Virus record (IMG/VR): IMGVR_UViG_3300036980_000293
Location: 1 to 28,887 of that record
DNA: 28,887 bases
Source of the DNA: a virus
Strand: one strand, 5' to 3'
Below the pieces are notes generated by a model. The model did no database searches, was not told the origin of the DNA, and worked only from the letters and a program-made list of their open reading frames with translations. Both the position numbers and the translations under genes were made by a program. Below are positions 1,738 through 19,515 of this stretch, one piece after another (position 1 is the first letter of the stretch; the number at the start of each line of letters is the position of its first letter).

Positions 1738-2199
1738 ATGCATAAAGAGACAGTTTCAGGTCGTCAATACAAGACTGAAAAGAATGTTTTCGATGCTGAA
1801 GATATAGTTGAGCTTGAGAGATTAGCTGCTTATCTTTCTGTTGACCAGATAGCGGCATATTTCTGTATTGGTCAAAATACTTTTTATGAAATAATGAAGA
1901 GACAACCAGAAGTGGCGGTAAGTTATCAAAAAGGAAGAGTTGATAAAACAGTTCTTTTTGCGCAACAATTACAAGATAAAGCACTTGGTATTACCACTGA
2001 AGGTGATACAACTGCACTTATCTTTTACCTAAAGACCCGTGCACGTTGGAGTGAGGCCGTTCCTGAAACAAAAATTGAAGAAGAAATCGTAAAAACTCCA
2101 GAAGAAAAAGCAGCTTATGATAAAGAAGTTAAGCTTTATACAGAGTTTAAAAATGATTTTGAAGAATTTTCAAAATGGAAAAAAGAGATGAATAAATGA
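1738..2199 (+). CDS. terS: Terminase small subunit (TerS)
   Basis: The small terminase binds phage DNA at the packaging start and recruits the large subunit. This 153-residue protein has a helix-turn-helix-like N-terminal half (SVDQIAAYFCIGQNTFYEIM, about residues 37-56). It then has the segment TTALIFYLKTRARW (about 93-106), a signature I recognise from many phage small terminases. The C-terminal third is highly charged and probably coiled coil, a common oligomerisation region. It sits first in the operon, directly before the large terminase genes, and its stop overlaps the start of the next small gene (ATGA). Length is normal for the family. Confidence 0.85.
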   Translation: MHKETVSGRQYKTEKNVFDAEDIVELERLAAYLSVDQIAAYFCIGQNTFYEIMKRQPEVAVSYQKGRVDKTVLFAQQLQDKALGITTEGDTTALIFYLKTRARWSEAVPETKIEEEIVKTPEEKAAYDKEVKLYTEFKNDFEEFSKWKKEMNK

Positions 2200-2432
2200 G
2201 TAAAGTTAAAAAAGATAACGCTGTTGATGAAGTAATTGCGACTCAAGAAGTTTCAACTGCTCAACCTGTAGTTGTTACAGCTCTTGATCCCGTATATAAT
2301 GATCGTGGTCAATTAAGCTATGGTTTTACAATAAAGTTAGATGATACAACTTATAGTTTCCGTACAAATCAACAAGGATATTTAGAGCTTAATGGTTCTG
2401 GTATATTCTTTAATAACTTTATACTAGCTTAA
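2196..2432 (+). CDS. Small hypothetical phage protein
   Basis: This is a 78-residue protein of unknown function. Its ATG overlaps the TGA of the small terminase gene, so the two are probably translationally coupled. The first third is polar and likely disordered (many Val, Ala, Gln). The rest alternates hydrophobic and polar residues (LSYGFTIKLDDTTYSFRTNQ), suggesting a small beta-rich domain. The position between the two terminase subunits is the only functional hint. Confidence 0.7.
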   Translation: MSKVKKDNAVDEVIATQEVSTAQPVVVTALDPVYNDRGQLSYGFTIKLDDTTYSFRTNQQGYLELNGSGIFFNNFILA

Positions 2433-2441
2433 TAATATAGT

Positions 2442-2501
2442 GTCATTAATGCTATTCTAATTGCTTATATCCATTGGCTTAATTAGAGTAGCATTAATGA
2501 C
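2442..2501 (+). repeat. 21-bp inverted repeat between the small and large terminase genes
   Basis: The arms are 2442-2462 and 2481-2501, with an 18-base loop. They pair over all 21 positions, with a single G-U in RNA and a single mismatch in DNA. The stem is AT-rich (begins GTCATTAATGCTA) and no T tract follows, so it is not a classical terminator. It sits just upstream of the split terminase gene. It could be an RNA-stability or processing element, a weak terminator, or a DNA site for packaging or homing. Confidence 0.75.
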
Positions 2502-2525
2502 ATTTAAACAAAATGGATAAAAACA

Positions 2526-3290
2526 ATGTTATTTTCTGATAAAGATATTGCCGAAGCTAGCTTATACGAGTTCTTTAAGCAATCATGGCACGTCATTGAA
2601 GGACACACCGAGTTCGTTGATGAATGGTATTTAAAAGAAATATCAAAATCATTAGAAGATTGTTATCACAGAAAGATTAAGAATTTATTAATTAATCTTC
2701 CCCCACGAAAAGGAAAAACCAATTTAATATCAATAGCATTTCCAGTATGGGTTTGGCTTCATAATCCAGAGGAAAAGTTTATCTGCGCCTCATATACTAA
2801 CTCTCTTGCATTAAAAATATCCGATAAAAGTAAGCTACTTATTGAAAGCGAATGGTTTCAAAATAATTGGGGCGATAGATTTAAACTACGTAGAGATCAA
2901 AATAGTAAGAGTTATTTTGCTAATAATAAAACTGGTTATAGGATGTCGACAAGTGCTGGATCTTTTGTTACTGGTTCAGGTGGCTCAATAATCATTTGCA
3001 TTCCATCGCATACTATGATACAATGTGATAAAGGTGTTTTTACCATAGGTGATATCGTTGACAATAAACTCGATGTTAGAGTTCTTAGCTATAATCATAA
3101 ATTCAATAGAACAGAGTTTAAAGAGATTGAACAATACTATAAACATGATGGTAAAGAGTTGTATGAGATAGAATTTGACGATGGTTCTGTTTTAGAATGC
3201 ACAGAAGAACACCCTGTGTTTGTTGAAAATAAGGGTTATGTGAATGCTAAAGAATTGCGAGAAGGGGACACGTGTTTGTCGAATTTGTAA
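2526..3290 (+). CDS. Terminase large subunit N-terminal part fused to a split-intein N half (TerL-IntN)
   Basis: Residues 1-157 are the N-terminal ATPase part of a large terminase: Walker A-like PPRKGKT at 59-65, then ICASYTNSLALKISDKSKLL, then TGSGGSIII, the first half of Walker B. At residue 158 (Cys, codon 2997-2999) an intein begins: CIPSHTMI with the nucleophile Cys1, GVFTIGDIV, and block B as GSVLECTEEHPVF with its Thr and His. It ends LREGDTCLSNL at two consecutive TAA stops (3288-3293). Int-N is thus 97 residues, similar to natural split inteins such as gp41-1. The partner half lies at 3996. The endonuclease gene overlaps the last 47 bases. Splicing is inferred from motifs, not shown. 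A normal intein broken by frameshifts is the main alternative. Confidence 0.82.
   Translation: MLFSDKDIAEASLYEFFKQSWHVIEGHTEFVDEWYLKEISKSLEDCYHRKIKNLLINLPPRKGKTNLISIAFPVWVWLHNPEEKFICASYTNSLALKISDKSKLLIESEWFQNNWGDRFKLRRDQNSKSYFANNKTGYRMSTSAGSFVTGSGGSIIICIPSHTMIQCDKGVFTIGDIVDNKLDVRVLSYNHKFNRTEFKEIEQYYKHDGKELYEIEFDDGSVLECTEEHPVFVENKGYVNAKELREGDTCLSNL
2997..3287 (+). other. Split-intein N half (Int-N) coding segment
   Basis: The segment encodes 97 residues from the catalytic Cys1 to the stop codon. Block A is CIPSHTMIQ. Block B carries TEEH. The end, ELREGDTCLSNL, resembles the ends of known split intein N halves. The upstream flanking residues GSIII are the start of the terminase Walker B strand. 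Confidence 0.8.
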
Positions 3291-4062
3291 TAAGGAATTA
3301 CCAAGTGCATATAAAACTTTTTGTTCTTGGGATTGTAGGGCGACTTATGGGCAGATACAAAGAACTCTTACATGCAGTTATTGTGGTAAAGTTAGCATTT
3401 TAAAAAAAGGAGAATGTTTAAAAGAAAATTCTAAATACTGTTCGGCTGTTTGTTCACAACGTAGTTATAGTGGTGCAAATAATCATAGCTGGAAAGGTGT
3501 AAAAGAAAATAGAGTTTGTTTAATTTGCAAGAAAACTTTTGTTGTAAAAACTATTCTTGATAAGAAACGTAAATTATATTGTAGTAAGGAGTGTCGAAGT
3601 AAAAGAATTATAATACCTAAGACAGTGTATGTAAATTGTTTGTACTGCGGTATTAAATTTAAAACATTAAAGAAAACTATATTACAGAAACATTGTTCAA
3701 GAGAATGCGCAGATAAAACGCATAGTATTAAAATGAGCAGTAAGGGTAATTCTAACTATGTACACGGAAATGGGAGTAGAGGATATCCTGTTGCATGGAC
3801 TAAAAGTTTTAAGAAGTTAATTCGCACTAGAGATGATTTTATATGTCAACTATGTTATATGACAGAAGAGCAGCACGGTCAAAAATTGTGTGTTCATCAT
3901 ATAGATTTTGATAAGTTTAATCTGAATCCTGAAAATTTAATTACGTTATGTAAGTTTTGTCATGGTAAGTTTCACGGTAAATATACGAGAGAAAAATGCA
4001 AAGAAGAATTGTTAAGTCTATTAAAAGAAAGGGGGAAATCCCTGACTATGTGTATAACATAG
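3244..4062 (+). CDS. HNH homing endonuclease with four zinc-finger-like Cys clusters
   Basis: This 272-residue protein is in the +1 frame relative to both terminase pieces. It has four CxxC...CxxxC clusters: C12/C15/C27/C31, C44/C47/C66/C70, C92/C95/C113/C117 and C132/C135/C151/C155. A C-terminal HNH nuclease domain follows: C201/C204, then CVHHIDFDKFNLNPENL (H218, H219, D221, N231), C236/C239 and H244. Such proteins cut intein-less alleles and copy themselves by repair. The ATG at 3244 has AAGGG 8 bases upstream and directly follows a TGA in its own frame, so it looks independently translated. It overlaps Int-N by 47 bases and Int-C by 67. In ordinary inteins this domain is fused in frame; here it is not. 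Confidence 0.85.
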   Translation: MLKNCEKGTRVCRICNKELPSAYKTFCSWDCRATYGQIQRTLTCSYCGKVSILKKGECLKENSKYCSAVCSQRSYSGANNHSWKGVKENRVCLICKKTFVVKTILDKKRKLYCSKECRSKRIIIPKTVYVNCLYCGIKFKTLKKTILQKHCSRECADKTHSIKMSSKGNSNYVHGNGSRGYPVAWTKSFKKLIRTRDDFICQLCYMTEEQHGQKLCVHHIDFDKFNLNPENLITLCKFCHGKFHGKYTREKCKEELLSLLKERGKSLTMCIT

Positions 4063-4112
4063 AGGTAAAAGATAATAATAATTATTTTGCTAATAATATC
4101 CTTGTACATAAT
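3996..4112 (+). other. Split-intein C half (Int-C) coding segment
   Basis: This encodes 39 residues from the start Met to the C-terminal Asn. That length and the M-basic-I-V-K start are typical of natural split-intein C halves, which are about 36-40 residues. The end, ILVHN followed by Cys, is the canonical C-terminal splice junction. Confidence 0.8.
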
Positions 4113-5156
4113 TGTGATGATCCAAACGACCCAAGCGGTGAATCTGAAATAACAACCGAACGAGTGAATGTTTGGTGGTCGCAGAAAATGTTTAATCGTG
4201 TTAATGATGCACGAACTGCTGTGCGTATTGTTGTGCAACAACGTTCACAAAGTGAGAATGACATATCAGGTAATATAATTAAGAATGACATAGAAAATCA
4301 ATGGCTTAAGTACATTCTACCTATGGAGTACGAAAGTACTATTAAGTCTAACTTTAATGATAAAAGAAAAGTTGAAGGCGAATTATTAAGTTGTCGGGAT
4401 ACTCCTGAGATAGTAAGGCAATTAAAAAGAGAGATGGGTACCTCTGGTTATGCTGCGCAGTATCAACAAAGACCCGCTCCACTTGAAGGTGGAATGATTA
4501 AGAAACATTGGTTTAAATTATATTCATATGAAGAACTTCCCGATTTAGATTTTGTAATACAATCTTGGGATACTGCACTTACGGCTCATGATGAGTCTAA
4601 TTATTCAGCGTGTACAACATGGGGAATATTTTTGGATAGATATGACAATGAAAATGTGATATTACTTTCAAGCTGGCGTGATAAGTTAGAATACCCAGAG
4701 CTTAGGGATAGAGTTAAAAGGCTTGCTAATAATTATAGAGATACGGCAACAAATACTTTGCCTGCGTCTATAAAGTATCAACCTGATTTAATAGTTATTG
4801 AGGCCAAGGCTTCTGGTGATCCATTAATACAGGATCTAAGACGAGGTGGAATATATGCACAACCTTTTATACCTAACAAACATGGCGATAAGATACAGCG
4901 TGTTAGGTTGATTACTTCTTTAATAGAAAGCGGTATAGTTTGGATGCCTTGCCAAAAGAATAACACGAACAAAATGGCTGACTTTGCTGATGAGTTTGTA
5001 ACAAGTATTAGCTACTTTCCGAATGTTAGCTCAAGGGATTATGTTGATACGATGACACAGGCATTGATAGTGCTTAGAGACGGTAGCAGGATATCTCACC
5101 CTAAAGATTATCGTGATCCTGCTGATGAATTTAAAGAAACAGTTAGATTTTATTAA
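3996..5156 (+). CDS. Split-intein C half fused to terminase large subunit C-terminal part (IntC-TerL)
   Basis: Residues 1-39 are an intein C half: MQRRIVKSIKRKG, then VYNIEVKDNNNYFANNILVHN (blocks F and G) with His38, Asn39 and the +1 nucleophile Cys40 (codon 4113-4115). The C-extein starts CDDPNDPSGESE, completing Walker B. It continues into the RuvC-like nuclease: SWDTA (D192), LIVIEAKASG (E269) and SSRDYVDTMTQAL (D348/D351). Joined to the N part at III|CDD, the product would be 504 residues, normal for TerL. Stops at 3966-3968 and 3978-3980 lie upstream in frame, so ATG 3996 is the first start; GAGAGA just upstream is a weak ribosome site. The usual block F His (DNHNFF) is Asn here. Confidence 0.83.
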   Translation: MQRRIVKSIKRKGEIPDYVYNIEVKDNNNYFANNILVHNCDDPNDPSGESEITTERVNVWWSQKMFNRVNDARTAVRIVVQQRSQSENDISGNIIKNDIENQWLKYILPMEYESTIKSNFNDKRKVEGELLSCRDTPEIVRQLKREMGTSGYAAQYQQRPAPLEGGMIKKHWFKLYSYEELPDLDFVIQSWDTALTAHDESNYSACTTWGIFLDRYDNENVILLSSWRDKLEYPELRDRVKRLANNYRDTATNTLPASIKYQPDLIVIEAKASGDPLIQDLRRGGIYAQPFIPNKHGDKIQRVRLITSLIESGIVWMPCQKNNTNKMADFADEFVTSISYFPNVSSRDYVDTMTQALIVLRDGSRISHPKDYRDPADEFKETVRFY

Positions 5157-5176
5157 GTTATTTAAAAGAGAATATT

Positions 5177-5545
5177 ATGCAAATAAACCCAAATAAAAAT
5201 ACTCCAAGTGATATTAAGATGAAATCATTAATGCGTTGCCTTAGTGGTTGTAAAGATTTATTTTATAGAGATCAGCCAACTAGCTATGATGAGTTTGATG
5301 ATAGTTGTTACAATGATTTGTTTGGTTATAGTGAACTTGAATCTTTTGAAAATGAAATGACAAAGATTAATTTGTTAAAAGATATAATTGCGTTAGCAGA
5401 TGTTGCAAGAAGTAAAACATTCACTACAGATACTAGTGATAGAGAACTTTTATCAGATATTTTTACTGAAATTTTTGTAAAAGCACATGAGATACGTACA
5501 ATTTTGAATTATGGTACTAGACCTGCTACAAGAAGTGCTAAATAA
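5177..5545 (+). CDS. Hypothetical phage protein
   Basis: This is a 122-residue protein I do not recognise. It is acidic in the middle (YDEFDDSCYNDLFGYSELESFENE) and probably all-helical in the second half (LLKDIIALADVARS, SDIFTEIFVKAHEIRTIL). There is no signal peptide or membrane segment. The ATG at 5177 has an AAAGAGAA ribosome site. It lies between the large terminase and portal genes and is co-directional, so a role in packaging or head assembly is possible but unproven. Confidence 0.75.
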   Translation: MQINPNKNTPSDIKMKSLMRCLSGCKDLFYRDQPTSYDEFDDSCYNDLFGYSELESFENEMTKINLLKDIIALADVARSKTFTTDTSDRELLSDIFTEIFVKAHEIRTILNYGTRPATRSAK

Positions 5546-5564: not shown

Positions 5565-7922
5565 ATGAAAAGAAATAATAAGCGTTTACAGTTAAGAGAT
5601 AGTGAAAATACTATTGATAATCAACTTAGTGGTCAAGCCATACCTGATAATATAACGGATGAAGATATCAATAAGCTTGAAGATTTAGAAGATGGTTCAA
5701 CTGTTTACGAAATAGGCAAGCCTGAGCTAGAACAAACAACTAAAGATGATAAGTTCGATGCCAACTTAGCCTTGAAGATGAAAGACGAGACATTAAAGAA
5801 AATATCGTCTTATATTTTAGATTGCTTAGAAGAAGATACTGAAGCAAGGCAACCTTGGTTAGATATTCATAATAAGGTTAAAAAGTATCTTGGTCATAAT
5901 TTAGAAGATTTGACAGATAGTCCTTTTACTCAAGCATGTCGAACATTTGATACGACGCTTAGTACAGCATTAATTAGATTTTGCGCAACATCTAGAAGTG
6001 AACTGTTACCTGAGAGTGGGCCATGTTCGTATAAGATAGTTGGTCAAAGTAACGATGAGCTTGATGATATTGCAAAGACAAGAAGTCAATGGCTTAATTA
6101 TTTTTTAACAATAAAGGATTCTGCTTATTATAAAGATTATGAAAAGTCTTTATATTACATTGGGTTTTATGGAACTGTTATTAAAAAAGTTTATTATGAT
6201 GATATTCTTAAACAACCTATTTCAAGATTTATTTTACCTGAAAACTTTTTGATTAATATTGATTGTACATCAATACTTGAATCAGATCGCTTAACTCATA
6301 TTTTAAAATTATCAGCACGTGATATTTTGATAAACCAAAAAAATGAGATTTATCGAGATGTTGAGCTACCTTATTTAAAAGTAGATGGTGGTAACAATGA
6401 TGATATGGATGATTCAAAAAAAACTGATTTCAATAGCCTTATCAATATTGATAACTATACACAAAGATCATTGCATGATGTGTATGAGAGTCATATTTAT
6501 TTGAACTTAGAAACTTTTGAACCAAACTATAACTCAGATGAAATTACAGATGTACCTAAACCTTACATAGTGACGTTAGATAAAGAAAGTAAAGAAATAC
6601 TTTGTATTAAACGTAATTGGAAAAAAGACGACGATACTTTCACCCGCAGAAAATATTTTATCGCTTATCAATATTTTACTGGTTTTGATATATGGGGTTT
6701 GGGTTTAGCTAGAATGTCTGGTACAAATGCAATAGCAGTTACTAATATGTTAAGGCAAACAGTTGATGCTGCAACTTATCAAAATTTACCAGCTGGCTTT
6801 ATCCAGAAGGGAACGAGTAAACAACAAAAAACAGATATTACTTTAGGTGCTGGTCAATGGCAATTTCTTGATGGTCCTGGAAATATAAAAGATTTATTTT
6901 CTCCACTGCCAAGTAATGGCCCATCACAAGCTTTGATGCAGTTAAGACAAGAAGTTATTGGTCAGATGCAAGATCAATTATCTACTACAGAACTTGGAAT
7001 GATGCAAAGTAAAGAAGATATTCCAACAGGAACGGCAATTGCATTCTTGGAAGAAAGTAACAAGATACAATCTTCAGTATTAAAATCCTTACATGTTTCT
7101 TTTTCGGAAGAATTACGTTTGCTTGATGATATATTTAAAGAAGTAGTTGATAGAGAGGAATTTTTTATCAATGGTGAAAATTATATTATCACTAAAGAAC
7201 ATTTTATTGATTCCGTTCAAATTATTCCCGTATCTGACCCGTCTGTTAATTCTAATATTCAAAGAATAATGAGAGCAGAGGCTGTGTTCCAAACAGCAAT
7301 GCAAATGCCAGATAAGATTAATTCTATTGAAGTTTTAAAGATGATCTTTAAAGCACAAGGTTTAGCAACTGATGTTATTGAAAGTCTTATTGTACAAGAA
7401 AATGAAGTGCAACCTACTGACCCTATTACTGAGAATATGAATATGATGCAGAATAAACCCGTTAAGGCTGGTTTAGATCAAAATCATGATGCACATATTG
7501 TTGTACATTCTGCTGTTGATACTGATCAAGCAAAGGCACATATACAAGAACATGCTGCAATGAAATTTATGTTACAAATGCAGCAAGAAATGGACATTGA
7601 TCTAAACCAAATAGACCCTAATGATCAAGAAATGCAAAATATGATTGCCATTAAAGCAGCTCATGCGGTTGAGAGTTTAGGTTTAAATAAACAAGATGAT
7701 GAAGATAGTGAGCTAAATCCTAATGCACTATTAAAGGCTGATATTGATCAAAAACGTGAACATAGCAATATTCAAAAAGAAATTGCAGATATGAAGTTAG
7801 AGGGAGATGTATTTAAAACTCAATTACATTTTGAAGAAACTAAAGAAAGACTAAAGGCAGATAAAGAAAAAGCCTTACTTGAGGCACGAATAGAAATAGA
7901 GAAATTAAAAAGTAGGTTGTAA
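5565..7922 (+). CDS. Portal protein (head-tail connector)
   Basis: The portal forms a 12-subunit ring at one capsid vertex, through which the terminase pumps DNA. This 785-residue protein has the size and position of a large podovirus-type portal. It contains segments I recognise from such portals: FDTTLSTALIRFCATSRSEL (about residues 127-146), a region with YYIGFYGTVIKKVYYDD, RQTVDAATYQNLPAGFI (about 398-414) and LPSNGPSQALMQLRQEVIGQ. The first 60 residues are acidic and polar. The C-terminal 70 residues are charged heptad-like coiled coil (KEKALLEARIEIEKLK). Portals of P22-like phages also have long C-terminal helices. The stop overlaps the next start (TAATG). Confidence 0.85.
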   Translation: MKRNNKRLQLRDSENTIDNQLSGQAIPDNITDEDINKLEDLEDGSTVYEIGKPELEQTTKDDKFDANLALKMKDETLKKISSYILDCLEEDTEARQPWLDIHNKVKKYLGHNLEDLTDSPFTQACRTFDTTLSTALIRFCATSRSELLPESGPCSYKIVGQSNDELDDIAKTRSQWLNYFLTIKDSAYYKDYEKSLYYIGFYGTVIKKVYYDDILKQPISRFILPENFLINIDCTSILESDRLTHILKLSARDILINQKNEIYRDVELPYLKVDGGNNDDMDDSKKTDFNSLINIDNYTQRSLHDVYESHIYLNLETFEPNYNSDEITDVPKPYIVTLDKESKEILCIKRNWKKDDDTFTRRKYFIAYQYFTGFDIWGLGLARMSGTNAIAVTNMLRQTVDAATYQNLPAGFIQKGTSKQQKTDITLGAGQWQFLDGPGNIKDLFSPLPSNGPSQALMQLRQEVIGQMQDQLSTTELGMMQSKEDIPTGTAIAFLEESNKIQSSVLKSLHVSFSEELRLLDDIFKEVVDREEFFINGENYIITKEHFIDSVQIIPVSDPSVNSNIQRIMRAEAVFQTAMQMPDKINSIEVLKMIFKAQGLATDVIESLIVQENEVQPTDPITENMNMMQNKPVKAGLDQNHDAHIVVHSAVDTDQAKAHIQEHAAMKFMLQMQQEMDIDLNQIDPNDQEMQNMIAIKAAHAVESLGLNKQDDEDSELNPNALLKADIDQKREHSNIQKEIADMKLEGDVFKTQLHFEETKERLKADKEKALLEARIEIEKLKSRL

Positions 7923-8109: not shown

Positions 8110-8490
8110 ATGTACAACGATGATGAAATAGGAATAGATTTTGATAATTTTAATGTAAATGATGAGTTATCTTTATTTGAAGATTGCACACCAAAGCCAA
8201 CTGAGATATTGATTAGATTATATATTCAACCTCAAAAAACAAAAGGCGGTATTATTATTGATAATTCCAAAGATATATATAATGAGATTGTTGGTTATGT
8301 TGCTAAAATAGGTAAATGTTGTTTTAGCGGTGAACGTTATAAAGATTGGGGACATTGGTATAAAGTTGGTGATTGGGTAGTCTTTCCAAGACATGCGGGT
8401 ATAAGATTTACTTATAAGAAATTACCAGTATTTTCAATAGTTGATGATGCTCCGCTTTTAATAATTCAAGATCCAAGAGAAGTTAAATAA
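8110..8490 (+). CDS. GroES/Cpn10-like protein (phage co-chaperonin family)
   Basis: This 126-residue protein has an acidic 30-residue N-terminal extension, then a Cpn10-like beta-barrel pattern. ILIRLYIQPQKTKGGIIIDN (about residues 35-54) corresponds to the first strand and the GroEL-binding mobile loop. It continues with NEIVGYVAKIGKCCF, YKVGDWVVFPRHAGIRF and IVDDAPLLII. Co-chaperonins cap GroEL; phage versions (T4 gp31 is the classic case) help fold capsid proteins. Similar GroES-fold proteins occur between portal and scaffold in other phages. Position next to scaffold and capsid supports a head-assembly role. GroEL binding is inferred; it might instead be a structural protein using the same fold. 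Confidence 0.75.
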   Translation: MYNDDEIGIDFDNFNVNDELSLFEDCTPKPTEILIRLYIQPQKTKGGIIIDNSKDIYNEIVGYVAKIGKCCFSGERYKDWGHWYKVGDWVVFPRHAGIRFTYKKLPVFSIVDDAPLLIIQDPREVK

Positions 8491-15772: not shown

Positions 15773-16930
15773 ATGTCAGATCCAAATACAGTACGGGTGT
15801 TATCTCTTGATGGTGGCGGGATGCGAGGCTATATCTCTTGTGTTTTTATGGATTTATTTGTCCAACAGTGGGGCATAAACCCCAATGAAATATGGAAGTA
15901 TTTTGATGTTATAACAGGTAGTTCTATTGGTGGAATTCAAGCAATGGCGTATTCAATAGGTCTTTCGCCATCAGATATAAGCGGTTTTTTTACAAATGAT
16001 GGACAATGGATATTTACAACAAGCACTTCTACTCCGTCAAGCCAACCGTCAACATTAACTAAAATAAATACTATTGTTGGTGGACCATTTAGTGACCCTA
16101 CCTTTTATCCTAGTACTACACCTGGAATAGGTACTATGCGATTAAAATCAGGTTTGACAACTACATTCGGGTCAAACACTTTGCAAAATGCTTTAACAAA
16201 CGTGATTGTTACTTCTTTTGAAAAAAATGATGCCAATCCTGATTATGCACAAACAACAAATACACCTGTTTATTTTTCCAATAGCAGTATTGTTCCTGTT
16301 CTTAGTGGTCAAAACACCTTAATGACAGATGTTGGAATGGCAACAAGTGCTGCACCATTATACTTTGCACCATGGGATATTGGGGCAGATTCATATATAG
16401 ATGGGGGTGTAACACAAAACAATCCTGCATCTTTTGGTTTGGCTGTAGCAAAAGCAATAAAACCAGTTGCAAATAGATGTTGTGTTTTATCAGTAGGTAC
16501 TGGGTTAGGTGACGTTGGTTTTCCACCCACAACTACTTTAGCTAAAGTTAAAAAAGAAATAATAGATTTAAACCTTGATCCAAAAGCTTATGGTGAGAAA
16601 TGGAAATTATCTTCAAAACAAGTTAAGAATTTGCAAAGTGTTGCGAATAATTTAGGGGCATTAGAAGGTGCTAACTTGATTATGTATCTATTGGGTGCAA
16701 TGAGTACTGGGCCACAAGAGATTGCTGCACAAGAATTAAACATTGCTGCTAACTATACGTTATCAAATCTATACAATTATAGGATGCAATATTATTTGCA
16801 ACCTGATTTAGACACAGAGCTTGATGATTCTACACCAGCTATTTTAGCATACTATAAAAGTTCAGTTACTGATTATTTTAATAGTGATATTTCAAACATT
16901 ACAACTTTTATAGGGCATTTAAACGCATGA
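15773..16930 (+). CDS. Patatin-like phospholipase/lipid acyl hydrolase
   Basis: This 385-residue protein has the patatin fold signatures. The oxyanion motif DGGGMRG is at 13-19. The nucleophile elbow GSSIGG has catalytic Ser51. The catalytic Asp210 is in DGGVTQNNPA. Patatin-like enzymes hydrolyse acyl chains from phospholipids or other lipids. No signal peptide is seen. The gene sits between head-completion genes and the tail fibre, with its TGA overlapping the fibre ATG (ATGA), so it is co-expressed with virion proteins. It could be a virion lipase that helps entry, a lysis factor, or a host-modifying effector. Activity is well supported by motifs; the role is inference. Confidence 0.85.
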   Translation: MSDPNTVRVLSLDGGGMRGYISCVFMDLFVQQWGINPNEIWKYFDVITGSSIGGIQAMAYSIGLSPSDISGFFTNDGQWIFTTSTSTPSSQPSTLTKINTIVGGPFSDPTFYPSTTPGIGTMRLKSGLTTTFGSNTLQNALTNVIVTSFEKNDANPDYAQTTNTPVYFSNSSIVPVLSGQNTLMTDVGMATSAAPLYFAPWDIGADSYIDGGVTQNNPASFGLAVAKAIKPVANRCCVLSVGTGLGDVGFPPTTTLAKVKKEIIDLNLDPKAYGEKWKLSSKQVKNLQSVANNLGALEGANLIMYLLGAMSTGPQEIAAQELNIAANYTLSNLYNYRMQYYLQPDLDTELDDSTPAILAYYKSSVTDYFNSDISNITTFIGHLNA

Positions 16931-19515
16931 ATGATGTTCTGTATAATTTTATATCACCTGTTACAGGAAGATTGCCGTTAACGGAGAATTACATCTTCCT
17001 TGGTGGTAGACAAGGTTTTTCAGTAATGTCACCTAAACTTATTGATATTGAATTAGATCTTATTAACATAAACCATGTTTTAGGGGATTTATCTACAACT
17101 GCATTTATTTTAGGCGCACCAAATCCAAAACTACCTTTGAGTCAGGATTTAAGTTCTCTTGACAATGGGTTTATGTTTAACACAGGTGGTACAATTAGTA
17201 CAACCAATAATTTACCTTTACCTAGTTTACCATATAACAATATTTGGGTCGGTAATATAAACGATGTGGCAGTACCAACACCATATGTTGTATCGCAGAA
17301 TAATAGTTCTTTTATATTACAAACACCTAACGAGAATTTAGCAAATGCTCAAGCTCTTAGTCAATTATTAGGCGGGATATTAAAAAGCGCACCTCTTACC
17401 GGAGTTATCAGCATCGCTACACCAGACGTTGATTATGCCACAGTTGCTACACTAGAAGAACTTGCCGCTGAAGCAGCAGCATCTGCGGAAGAAGCTAGTG
17501 CAGCAGCCTTAGAAGCTACAGCAGCGGCAGGCGAGGCTACAGCAGCGGCGGCAGAGGCGAGTTTATCTGCTACAGGAGCTGGAATATCTGCTCTTGCCGC
17601 GGCGGCTTCTGCTTTAGCTGCGGGTGGTTCAGCTAGTAGCGCGTCTTCATCAGCATCTGACGCTAGTGACTCGGCAGATAACGCCAGTTCTAGTGCAACT
17701 GAAGCTCAAAATTACCTTAACGCTCTCTTGAGTACTGGTTTGAATGCTCTGCCGTGTACTGGGGATGTATCTTTTCAAGGCTTTAAATTAATTAATTTGG
17801 GAACGCCAATAGTTGCAACAGATGGAGCGACAAAAGGGTACGTTGATACTGCTATCGGCAATGTTCCTTTAGCAAGTTTAACGTTGCAAGGTGATGTTAC
17901 TGGTTCAGGACCTTTAAATGTTCCTGTTATTACCACTCTTACTAAAACATTAAATGAAATTACAAATGCAGGAAATGTAAATATAGGTAACTATAATTTA
18001 AATAATGTTTTAGATCCATTAAACCCACAAGACGGAGCTACTAAAAATTATGTTGATAATGCAACTATTGCACCATCACAGATAATTAATTATCCGTCAA
18101 GTTCATCTTTATTTCTTAACGGTGCAGGAACATGGACTGCTCCTAGTTTTTCTAATCTCATAACTACAAGTAGCAGTAGTTATGAAATAACAATAAATAA
18201 TACTAATCCAAATAGTACTGATACTGGTTTATTAATACAAAATAATGGCTTTAATGCTGTTAATTTTGGCTTTAATAATAGTACAAAGGAAGCTTATGTG
18301 TGGGCTTACGGTAGTAACGCACTTTTAAAATTCGGTACAAATGCAACAACAAGAATGCAGCTGCTAAATAATGGCACGTTAGATTTACTTACAAATAGTA
18401 TAACAGGATTAGCTAATCCTGTTAACCCTACAGATGCTGTAAATAAAGAATATGTTGATTCAATCATTACACCAAGTCAATCAATTAGTTTATCAGGAGC
18501 TATATCAGGCTCAGGTCAAACTGGAACTGTAGTAAATACAATTTTAAGTAGCTTAATTGGTTTAACCACAAACCAAGTTTTTAATTTCACAGGATCTCCC
18601 ACTAGTTTTAATTACGATTTAACTATTCCAAATAGCACTAATCAGACTGTGAAACTAAGGTTAAACAGAGCAAACACAGGTAATGGAGCTGGGTATGAGT
18701 TTCAATTTTACTCTCCTACTAATGGGGTGGATACCTTTACCTTTGGGTATAACTCAGGTTCAGTTTTCGGAAACATTTATTCAATGGCAAACAATGTTCC
18801 CTTAATTACATATAATTACTCGTTGTTCATAAATGATATTGGTACATATAAACCTTATAACGGTAGCTATGGTTATTTAAATTCGACGGGTAGCACGGGT
18901 CAATCATCTGGTCAAAATTCTTATTCTATCAATTGTACTAATCGGGTAAAGGCTTCTGAATTTGATGCTGTTTCTTCTAAGAAGATAAAAAATGTTTTAG
19001 GAAGAGGCAAGGAAATCGAACATACGGCAATTGAGCTTTTTAAGAAAATCCCCTTATTTAAGTATAAATATAAGGACACTATTAAAGAAGGTGATGCTGA
19101 CCATTATGGCGTTATAGCAGAAGAATTGGCAGAAGTTATCCCTGCTTTCGTGAACATGCAAGATGAGGGATGGATTCCTAATATTTATAAAACTTGTATA
19201 GCAGAAAAAGGATTAGATAATTCCTATAAATTTTATTTTGATGAAAAGTTAGAAAACATAGATGGTGACAGGTTAAAGTTAGTTTTTCGAGATAAAGAAG
19301 GTGAAAAAAACGCAGAAGTTATGATTACAGAAATAACGGCAGACTCGTTGTCTGTTATTTGCTGCGAAAAGTTGCCGAAAGATATTTTTGTATACGGCAC
19401 TTATTCAAAATGCCCAACTGTCAGCAAACAAAAAGTATTTGAATTGGGATTAGTAGCATTGCAAAACATTATAAAAAGAGTAGAGAGTTTAGAAAACAAA
19501 TTGAGGTGTATATAA
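16927..19515 (+). CDS. Tail fibre/tailspike with S74 chaperone domain
   Basis: In this 862-residue protein an N-terminal part of about 170 residues probably anchors to the tail. Residues about 171-264 are an Ala-rich coiled coil (EEASAAALEATAAAGEAT). A shaft then has three units ending in ATKGYVD, ATKNYVD and AVNKEYVD, typical of fibres. From about residue 675 there is a peptidase S74 intramolecular chaperone: VSSKKIKNVLGRG, FKYKYKD, HYGVIAEELAEVIPAFV. This domain trimerises the fibre and cleaves itself off; Ser-Lys in SSKKIK is the likely active pair. It probably binds the host surface. The start overlaps the phospholipase stop; a small receptor-region gene follows. Confidence 0.88.
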   Translation: MNDVLYNFISPVTGRLPLTENYIFLGGRQGFSVMSPKLIDIELDLININHVLGDLSTTAFILGAPNPKLPLSQDLSSLDNGFMFNTGGTISTTNNLPLPSLPYNNIWVGNINDVAVPTPYVVSQNNSSFILQTPNENLANAQALSQLLGGILKSAPLTGVISIATPDVDYATVATLEELAAEAAASAEEASAAALEATAAAGEATAAAAEASLSATGAGISALAAAASALAAGGSASSASSSASDASDSADNASSSATEAQNYLNALLSTGLNALPCTGDVSFQGFKLINLGTPIVATDGATKGYVDTAIGNVPLASLTLQGDVTGSGPLNVPVITTLTKTLNEITNAGNVNIGNYNLNNVLDPLNPQDGATKNYVDNATIAPSQIINYPSSSSLFLNGAGTWTAPSFSNLITTSSSSYEITINNTNPNSTDTGLLIQNNGFNAVNFGFNNSTKEAYVWAYGSNALLKFGTNATTRMQLLNNGTLDLLTNSITGLANPVNPTDAVNKEYVDSIITPSQSISLSGAISGSGQTGTVVNTILSSLIGLTTNQVFNFTGSPTSFNYDLTIPNSTNQTVKLRLNRANTGNGAGYEFQFYSPTNGVDTFTFGYNSGSVFGNIYSMANNVPLITYNYSLFINDIGTYKPYNGSYGYLNSTGSTGQSSGQNSYSINCTNRVKASEFDAVSSKKIKNVLGRGKEIEHTAIELFKKIPLFKYKYKDTIKEGDADHYGVIAEELAEVIPAFVNMQDEGWIPNIYKTCIAEKGLDNSYKFYFDEKLENIDGDRLKLVFRDKEGEKNAEVMITEITADSLSVICCEKLPKDIFVYGTYSKCPTVSKQKVFELGLVALQNIIKRVESLENKLRCI

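Follow-up and report, generated by a model that had tools for sequence, protein, structure and literature searches.

A probable split intein with an HNH endonuclease gene between its halves in a phage large terminase gene, and relatives in which the nuclease gene lies hidden in an unbroken intein

Fractured genes were reportedly described by Dassa et al. in 2009; the loci are said to encode enzymes of DNA synthesis and repair, half of them with Vsr-like nucleases. The origin of natural split inteins has been an open question since then. Here, we describe a locus in the IMG/VR record IMGVR_UViG_3300036980_000293, a single metagenomic record, whose whole stretch of 28,887 nucleotides (nt) is referred to as the window. 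In the window, the gene encoding a phage large terminase (TerL) is very probably interrupted, just before the Walker B Asp pair (DD), by a naturally split intein whose halves flank a gene for a homing-type HNH endonuclease, i.e., it is a 'fractured gene'. As in the known fractured genes, a conserved enzyme gene in phage or metagenomic DNA is broken by an intein split at the canonical site, and a free-standing endonuclease gene lies in between. Unlike the loci described as fractured genes, the window has a host gene that encodes TerL, with the break at Walker B, and a nuclease of the zinc-finger HNH type, whose open reading frame (ORF) overlaps both intein halves.

Natural split inteins of phage large terminases have been found in metagenomes before: AceL-TerL, GOS-TerL and Cat-TerL are split atypically, with an N-terminal half (Int-N) of 25-37 amino acids (aa) and a C-terminal half (Int-C) of 104-115 aa (PMC11766414). 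The window shares the host protein with them, but has a canonical split of 97 plus 39 aa and an HNH gene between the halves. NrdJ-1, gp41-1 and IMPDH-1 are split canonically, as in the window, but their host proteins differ, and the window has an Asn in place of the block-F His; NrdJ-1 is the nearest solved split intein (sequence match with E=1e-8). The third related system, published in 2025, is the ShiLan-type HNH, a zinc-finger HNH that is hidden out of frame in a phage methylase, shows a sporadic distribution and for which no intein was found (PMC11855218). An out-of-frame zinc-finger HNH is also present in the window, where the intein is split instead. The hidden state of ShiLan recurs in the Gordonia phage Clown, the Synechococcus phage S-EIV1 and the contig L038; in these, however, the HNH gene is embedded in a TerL intein that can be recognised as such. 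A canonical TerL split intein combined with an overlapping zinc-finger HNH and hidden homologues was not found in the literature searched; an earlier description of dual-coded inteins is possible, and actinobacteriophage inteins of 'non-canonical architecture' (preprint 10.1101/2025.01.02.630785, cited in PMC11855218) may be some such inteins already described. The original prediction, which was made from the sequence alone, had read the locus as a split intein and as a possible new member of its class. The first part is still the best reading, although relatives with the same HNH in an unbroken intein could not be seen from the sequence alone; the second part has to be narrowed, as terminase split inteins were already known, but those are split atypically and not at the canonical site.

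The locus comprises three ORFs, 2526-3290 (254 aa), 3244-4062 (272 aa) and 3996-5156 (386 aa), which are made up of the following parts, listed together with the small terminase gene as context:

2526..2996, + strand: TerL N-extein, 157 aa, with Walker A (NLPPRKGKT) and the C-terminal end GGSIII (phrog_4758, E=8.8e-31; phrog_38, E=5.5e-26)
2997..3287, + strand: Int-N, 97 aa, with Cys1, block B TEEH and the end LREGDTCLSNL (TIGR01445, E=2e-9)
3244..4062, + strand: HNH endonuclease gene with a zinc-finger array, in the +1 frame relative to the TerL/intein frame (phrog_1271, E=1.2e-25)
3996..4112, + strand: Int-C, 39 aa, start MQRRIVKSIKRK, end ILVHN (TIGR01443, E=1e-5)
4113..5156, + strand: TerL C-extein, 347 aa, starting with CDDPNDP (Walker B Asp pair) and holding the nuclease domain (phrog_38, E=1.1e-36; TIGR01630, E=1.4e-11)
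1738..2199, + strand: gene for a TerS-like small terminase subunit (phrog_309, E=1.2e-10)

Tandem stop codons (TAA TAA, 3288-3293) close the Int-N ORF, which overlaps the HNH ORF by 47 nt (3244-3290); the HNH and Int-C ORFs overlap by 67 nt (3996-4062). The HNH ORF has its own start codon and is free-standing between the intein halves; in an alignment of the HNH proteins, the Cys pairs are invariant, and a VHH..N..CH motif is seen. The insertion point lies between GGSIII and the Walker B pair of TerL, and Walker A and Walker B would therefore be located on separate polypeptides until splicing. The exteins add up to 157 + 347 = 504 residues. All coordinates of the original prediction, i.e., the ORF layout, the ends of Int-N and Int-C, the TAA TAA stops and the HNH gene in another frame, were confirmed, and the intein search it had proposed for both halves gave matches above the cut-offs, with 38.3 bits for TIGR01445 intein_Nterm (cut-off 24.5) and 25.6 bits for TIGR01443 intein_Cterm (cut-off 15.6).

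The motifs of class 1 inteins are present, namely C1, block B (T69-E-E-H72), the VHN terminus and the +1 Cys. Canonical split inteins consist of an Int-N of about 90-100 aa and an Int-C of about 36-40 aa encoded by separate ORFs, and the 97 and 39 aa of the window fall within these ranges. For an AlphaFold2 model, Int-N, spacer and Int-C were treated as one chain, with stops read as residues, and aligned with eight relatives. The predicted local distance difference test score was mostly 85-95 for Int-N, 80-93 for Int-C and below 50 for the spacer. The modelled Int-N and Int-C superimpose on the Mtu RecA intein (2in0) with Z=22.9 and a root-mean-square deviation of 1.5 A over 137 residues, and match the NrdJ-1 split intein with Z=21.8 and 31% identity. 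From this confident joint model and the matches to RecA and NrdJ-1, it is concluded that the two halves together are predicted to form one complete intein (HINT) fold.

The same split was found in other records. In L109, a scaffold of Brasilonema sp. UFV-L1, Int-N ends with YDETENL followed by a stop codon, the HNH gene (3413-4432) is in the +1 frame, and the Met of Int-C is at 4369, resulting in overlaps of 23 and 64 nt. In the viral contig L226, Int-N, HNH and Int-C are each in a different frame; the Int-N stop overlaps the HNH start in an ATGA, and there is a 37-nt overlap at the HNH/Int-C end. L227 has kept the split, and its HNH gene is decayed and has lost the middle. The N-termini of Int-C (MQRRIVKSIKR in the window, MKSKVVKSIKR in L012, MEERTVKAIRR in L109, MERKIVKAIRK in L226 and MEKSTIKSIRR in L227) share the start Met and the motif (V/I)K(S/A)I(K/R). 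The complete split copies at the site of the window have an Int-N of 95-101 aa and an Int-C of 37-39 aa with the same starting Met, and Cys1, block B T..H, the terminal HN and the +1 Cys are retained in every one of them. To obtain a null expectation for stop codons, the synonymous codons of the HNH gene were permuted and the stops counted in the intein frame. Across the HNH gene of the window, the intein frame contains 39 stops versus 40.5 expected, and in L109 37 versus 37.1. Since the 39 stops match the chance expectation, the window is truly split rather than dual-coding. No Rfam match that would point to an intron was obtained at E<=1 within positions 2400-5300.

The intein is absent from the corresponding site in close relatives: neither L003, with 94% nt identity over the terL DNA, nor L004-L007, with 84-90%, has an intein there. 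The N-extein is 89-96% identical at the aa level to the intein-free TerL of L004-L007, and the C-extein is 88-98% identical to intein-free relatives. Presence and absence at one site among close genomes, as expected of a homing endonuclease cassette, is thus observed. The +1 codon is TGT (Cys) in the window, whereas the empty relatives closest to it have GTT or ATT (Val or Ile) there. Since the more distant empty TerLs of L034, L035 and L040 have TGT at +1, the element may originate from a lineage of this kind and have brought its Cys codon along. There is also a dip in identity beside the insertion, which is small versus the best match L003 and hints at co-conversion. L003 (2672-3718) and L008 harbour a different, contiguous intein with a long insert in the Walker A motif of the same terL, between GK and T.

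From the layout, motifs and fold, recurrence and empty sites, which are drawn from sequence or computation, we infer how coupling, cleavage, splicing and homing would proceed. TerL-N-Int-N, the HNH nuclease and Int-C-TerL-C would most likely all be made from a single transcript, and the overlapping starts and stops (4-67 nt) suggest that their translation is coupled. A fairly strong Shine-Dalgarno-like signal (-5.1) precedes the HNH gene of the window. Int-N and Int-C would then associate and trans-splice through Cys1, the terminal Asn and the +1 Cys, and the resulting TerL of 504 residues would again hold both Walker motifs on one chain. During co-infection, the whole cassette would be copied into terL alleles without the intein after their cleavage by the HNH enzyme.

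Three observations weigh against a functional split intein. The evidence for the window comes from one metagenomic record without reads; the anti-Shine-Dalgarno signal before Int-C is moderate (-3.0), and 28% of all ATGs have one as strong; and the block-F His of most inteins is replaced by Asn in Int-C (KDNNNYF, window 4065-4100). Asn at this position is probably tolerated, as the contiguous inteins of L016 and L017 carry a KDNNNYF-like motif as well, and the motif is likewise seen in L017 and L018, whose inteins sit in unrelated host genes. The block-F His is common in, yet not strictly defining for, class 1 inteins, and Asn was not treated as excluding.

Among the alternatives, a terminase that works as two non-covalently associated chains, with the intein pieces as inert remnants, survives best, but is very unlikely. 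There is a precedent in a phage ribonucleotide reductase that was broken by a homing endonuclease and is functional without splicing (cited in the introduction of PMC10448857); in the window, however, the break separates Walker A from the Walker B Asp pair within the ATPase, and the residues and motifs listed above are kept in every complete split copy. It is slightly less probable still that terL is a broken pseudogene of a defective genome: although the window is a single metagenomic record of an uncultured virus, each of the three ORFs is open, the two TerL parts share 88-98% identity with intact relatives, and no additional TerL was noted in the ORF list of the window. The remaining two explanations are hardly credible. 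Both junctions lie near short G-runs (3265-3268 and 4032-4036), and a change of one base at each would bring the frames together; a sequencing or assembly error could thus have broken a contiguous intein that contains the HNH domain in frame. Such one-base errors had been named by the original prediction as what would refute it, but Int-C homology reaches upstream of the second G-run, so that a frame fusion at 4032 would destroy the conserved strand formed by MQRRIVKSIK; the 39 stops match chance, the layout is repeated in the independent records L109 and L226, in the latter in three frames, and no damage is apparent in the other large ORFs of the 28.9-kb record. Read-through of the intein frame or a programmed frameshift for HNH, with TerL made as one dual-coded precursor, has in its favour that exactly this frame is kept open in S-EIV1, Clown and L038, but the 39 stops over the HNH gene of the window, close to the shuffle expectation, speak against it.

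A naturally split intein remains the preferred reading of the window, and a second state is seen in related TerL inteins with an open intein frame. With the window HNH as sole query, no close viral relative was found; HNH relatives were reached with the HNH of L038 and an HNH alignment as queries, and the alignments of Int-N and Int-C were too diverse for a scan of the collection. In Gordonia phage Clown (L057, coding sequence 1817-4576), Synechococcus phage S-EIV1 (L058, coding sequence 2019-4559) and L038, the TerL frame is unbroken through Int-N, spacer and Int-C, and the spacer carries a homologous HNH gene in its +1 frame. In the records of Clown and S-EIV1, the annotation is 'terminase' only. 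The intein frame has no stops over the HNH gene versus 12.7 expected in L038 and 12.4 in S-EIV1, and zero was reached in 0 of 5000 shuffles; for Clown (66% guanine plus cytosine, GC), there are 0 stops versus 2.8 expected (P=0.037). A scan with the HNH of S-EIV1 revealed 36 contigs (L190-L225) with HNH proteins 56-90% identical to it; some are near-copies, and four are partial. Over the HNH match, all 36 have zero stops in the intein frame, whereas the third frame contains 9-20. The shuffle test was applied to 12 of them, one of which was set aside due to a stop in its HNH frame; in the other 11, 10.6-16 stops were expected. An open intein frame across the nuclease, which defines dual coding, is therefore found in L038, L057, L058 and L190-L225 with zero stops each, but not in the window (39) or L109 (37). 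Over 178 pairs in the S-EIV1-like group, the mean aa identity is 63% for the HNH frame, 36% for the intein-frame spacer and 35% for the unused frame. Because the HNH frame is conserved and the spacer frame resembles the unused one, the nuclease looks like the selected product in the hidden forms, with the intein frame merely held open.

Hidden nucleases occur in further inteins. In L017 (3227-4084), a helicase intein with 28% GC carries a DUF559-type nuclease in its +1 frame, and the intein frame has 0 stops versus 8.2 expected. In L106 (2188-3138), a Terminase_3-type TerL has an intein in its nuclease domain, and the +2 frame of this intein conceals an HNH_3 nuclease (codon shuffle P=0.053); the shuffle test is weak for Clown and L106, as their GC content is high. 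In Escherichia phage BUCT618 (L060), a NUMOD4 + HNH_3 nuclease on the minus strand (3703-4389) overlaps the spacer of a TerL intein in the Walker B region, and the test is uninformative for this antisense gene (null 0.0).

In phylogenetic trees, the HNH proteins of TerL inteins separate from free-standing HNH proteins (support 92/63; 86/90). In the tree with 54 rows, the window groups with the hidden L038 (95/84, with the bootstrap not settled), and the nodes collapse once L226 is added; a single clade of split copies was not rejected by the approximately unbiased test (p = 0.16-0.28). It is tentatively proposed, at somewhat less than even odds, that TerL inteins can carry their homing endonuclease as an overlapping gene in another frame instead of as an in-frame domain, and that the hidden form (S-EIV1, Clown, L038) gave rise to the split form (window, L109, L226) via stops and an internal Int-C Met, which would be a birth route for split inteins and fractured genes. 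Two arguments speak for the hidden form as the earlier one. Nothing would drive a split copy to shed its roughly 40 stops, while a single nonsense mutation plus an internal start would suffice for a hidden copy to become split. The hidden state could also begin in GC-rich genomes, where the frame is nearly open from the outset. Against this order, the HNH gene could have inserted directly, thereby splitting the intein at once.

A switch between contiguous and split forms among close relatives is also seen independently of the site of the window. L015 (1168-2549) has a split TerL intein with a GIY-YIG gene between the halves, two residues upstream of the site of the window, and its sister L016 (2443-2859; support 97/96 and 100/100) has a contiguous mini-intein at the same site as L015. 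In one group of TerL inteins near Walker B, the states seen are empty sites, contiguous mini-inteins, contiguous inteins with a hidden HNH, split inteins with an HNH, and split inteins with a decayed or no HNH. L012 (IMGVR 3300047493_000064) and L189 also have a split TerL intein, with the Int-N half at 45809-46546 and the Int-C half near 6675, at opposite ends of one 47-kb record and about 7.2 kb apart if it is circular. No HNH match was found near this Int-C, and the Int-N end KDNKCFSMVN seems to be repeated at the end of the next ORF.

Elsewhere in the window, a Cpn10/GroES-like co-chaperonin gene (8110-8490; PF00166, E=4e-5) is found in the phage structural region, a patatin-like phospholipase gene (15773-16930; PF01734, E=9e-22) adjoins the tail genes, and 16927-19515 encodes a tail fibre-like protein that carries an S74 chaperone domain close to the C-terminal end.

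The canonical TerL split intein of the window is a candidate trans-splicing tool. Nuclease genes hidden inside genes annotated as 'terminase', as in Clown and S-EIV1, go missed. With several intein states present in one TerL group, the route to split inteins becomes testable.
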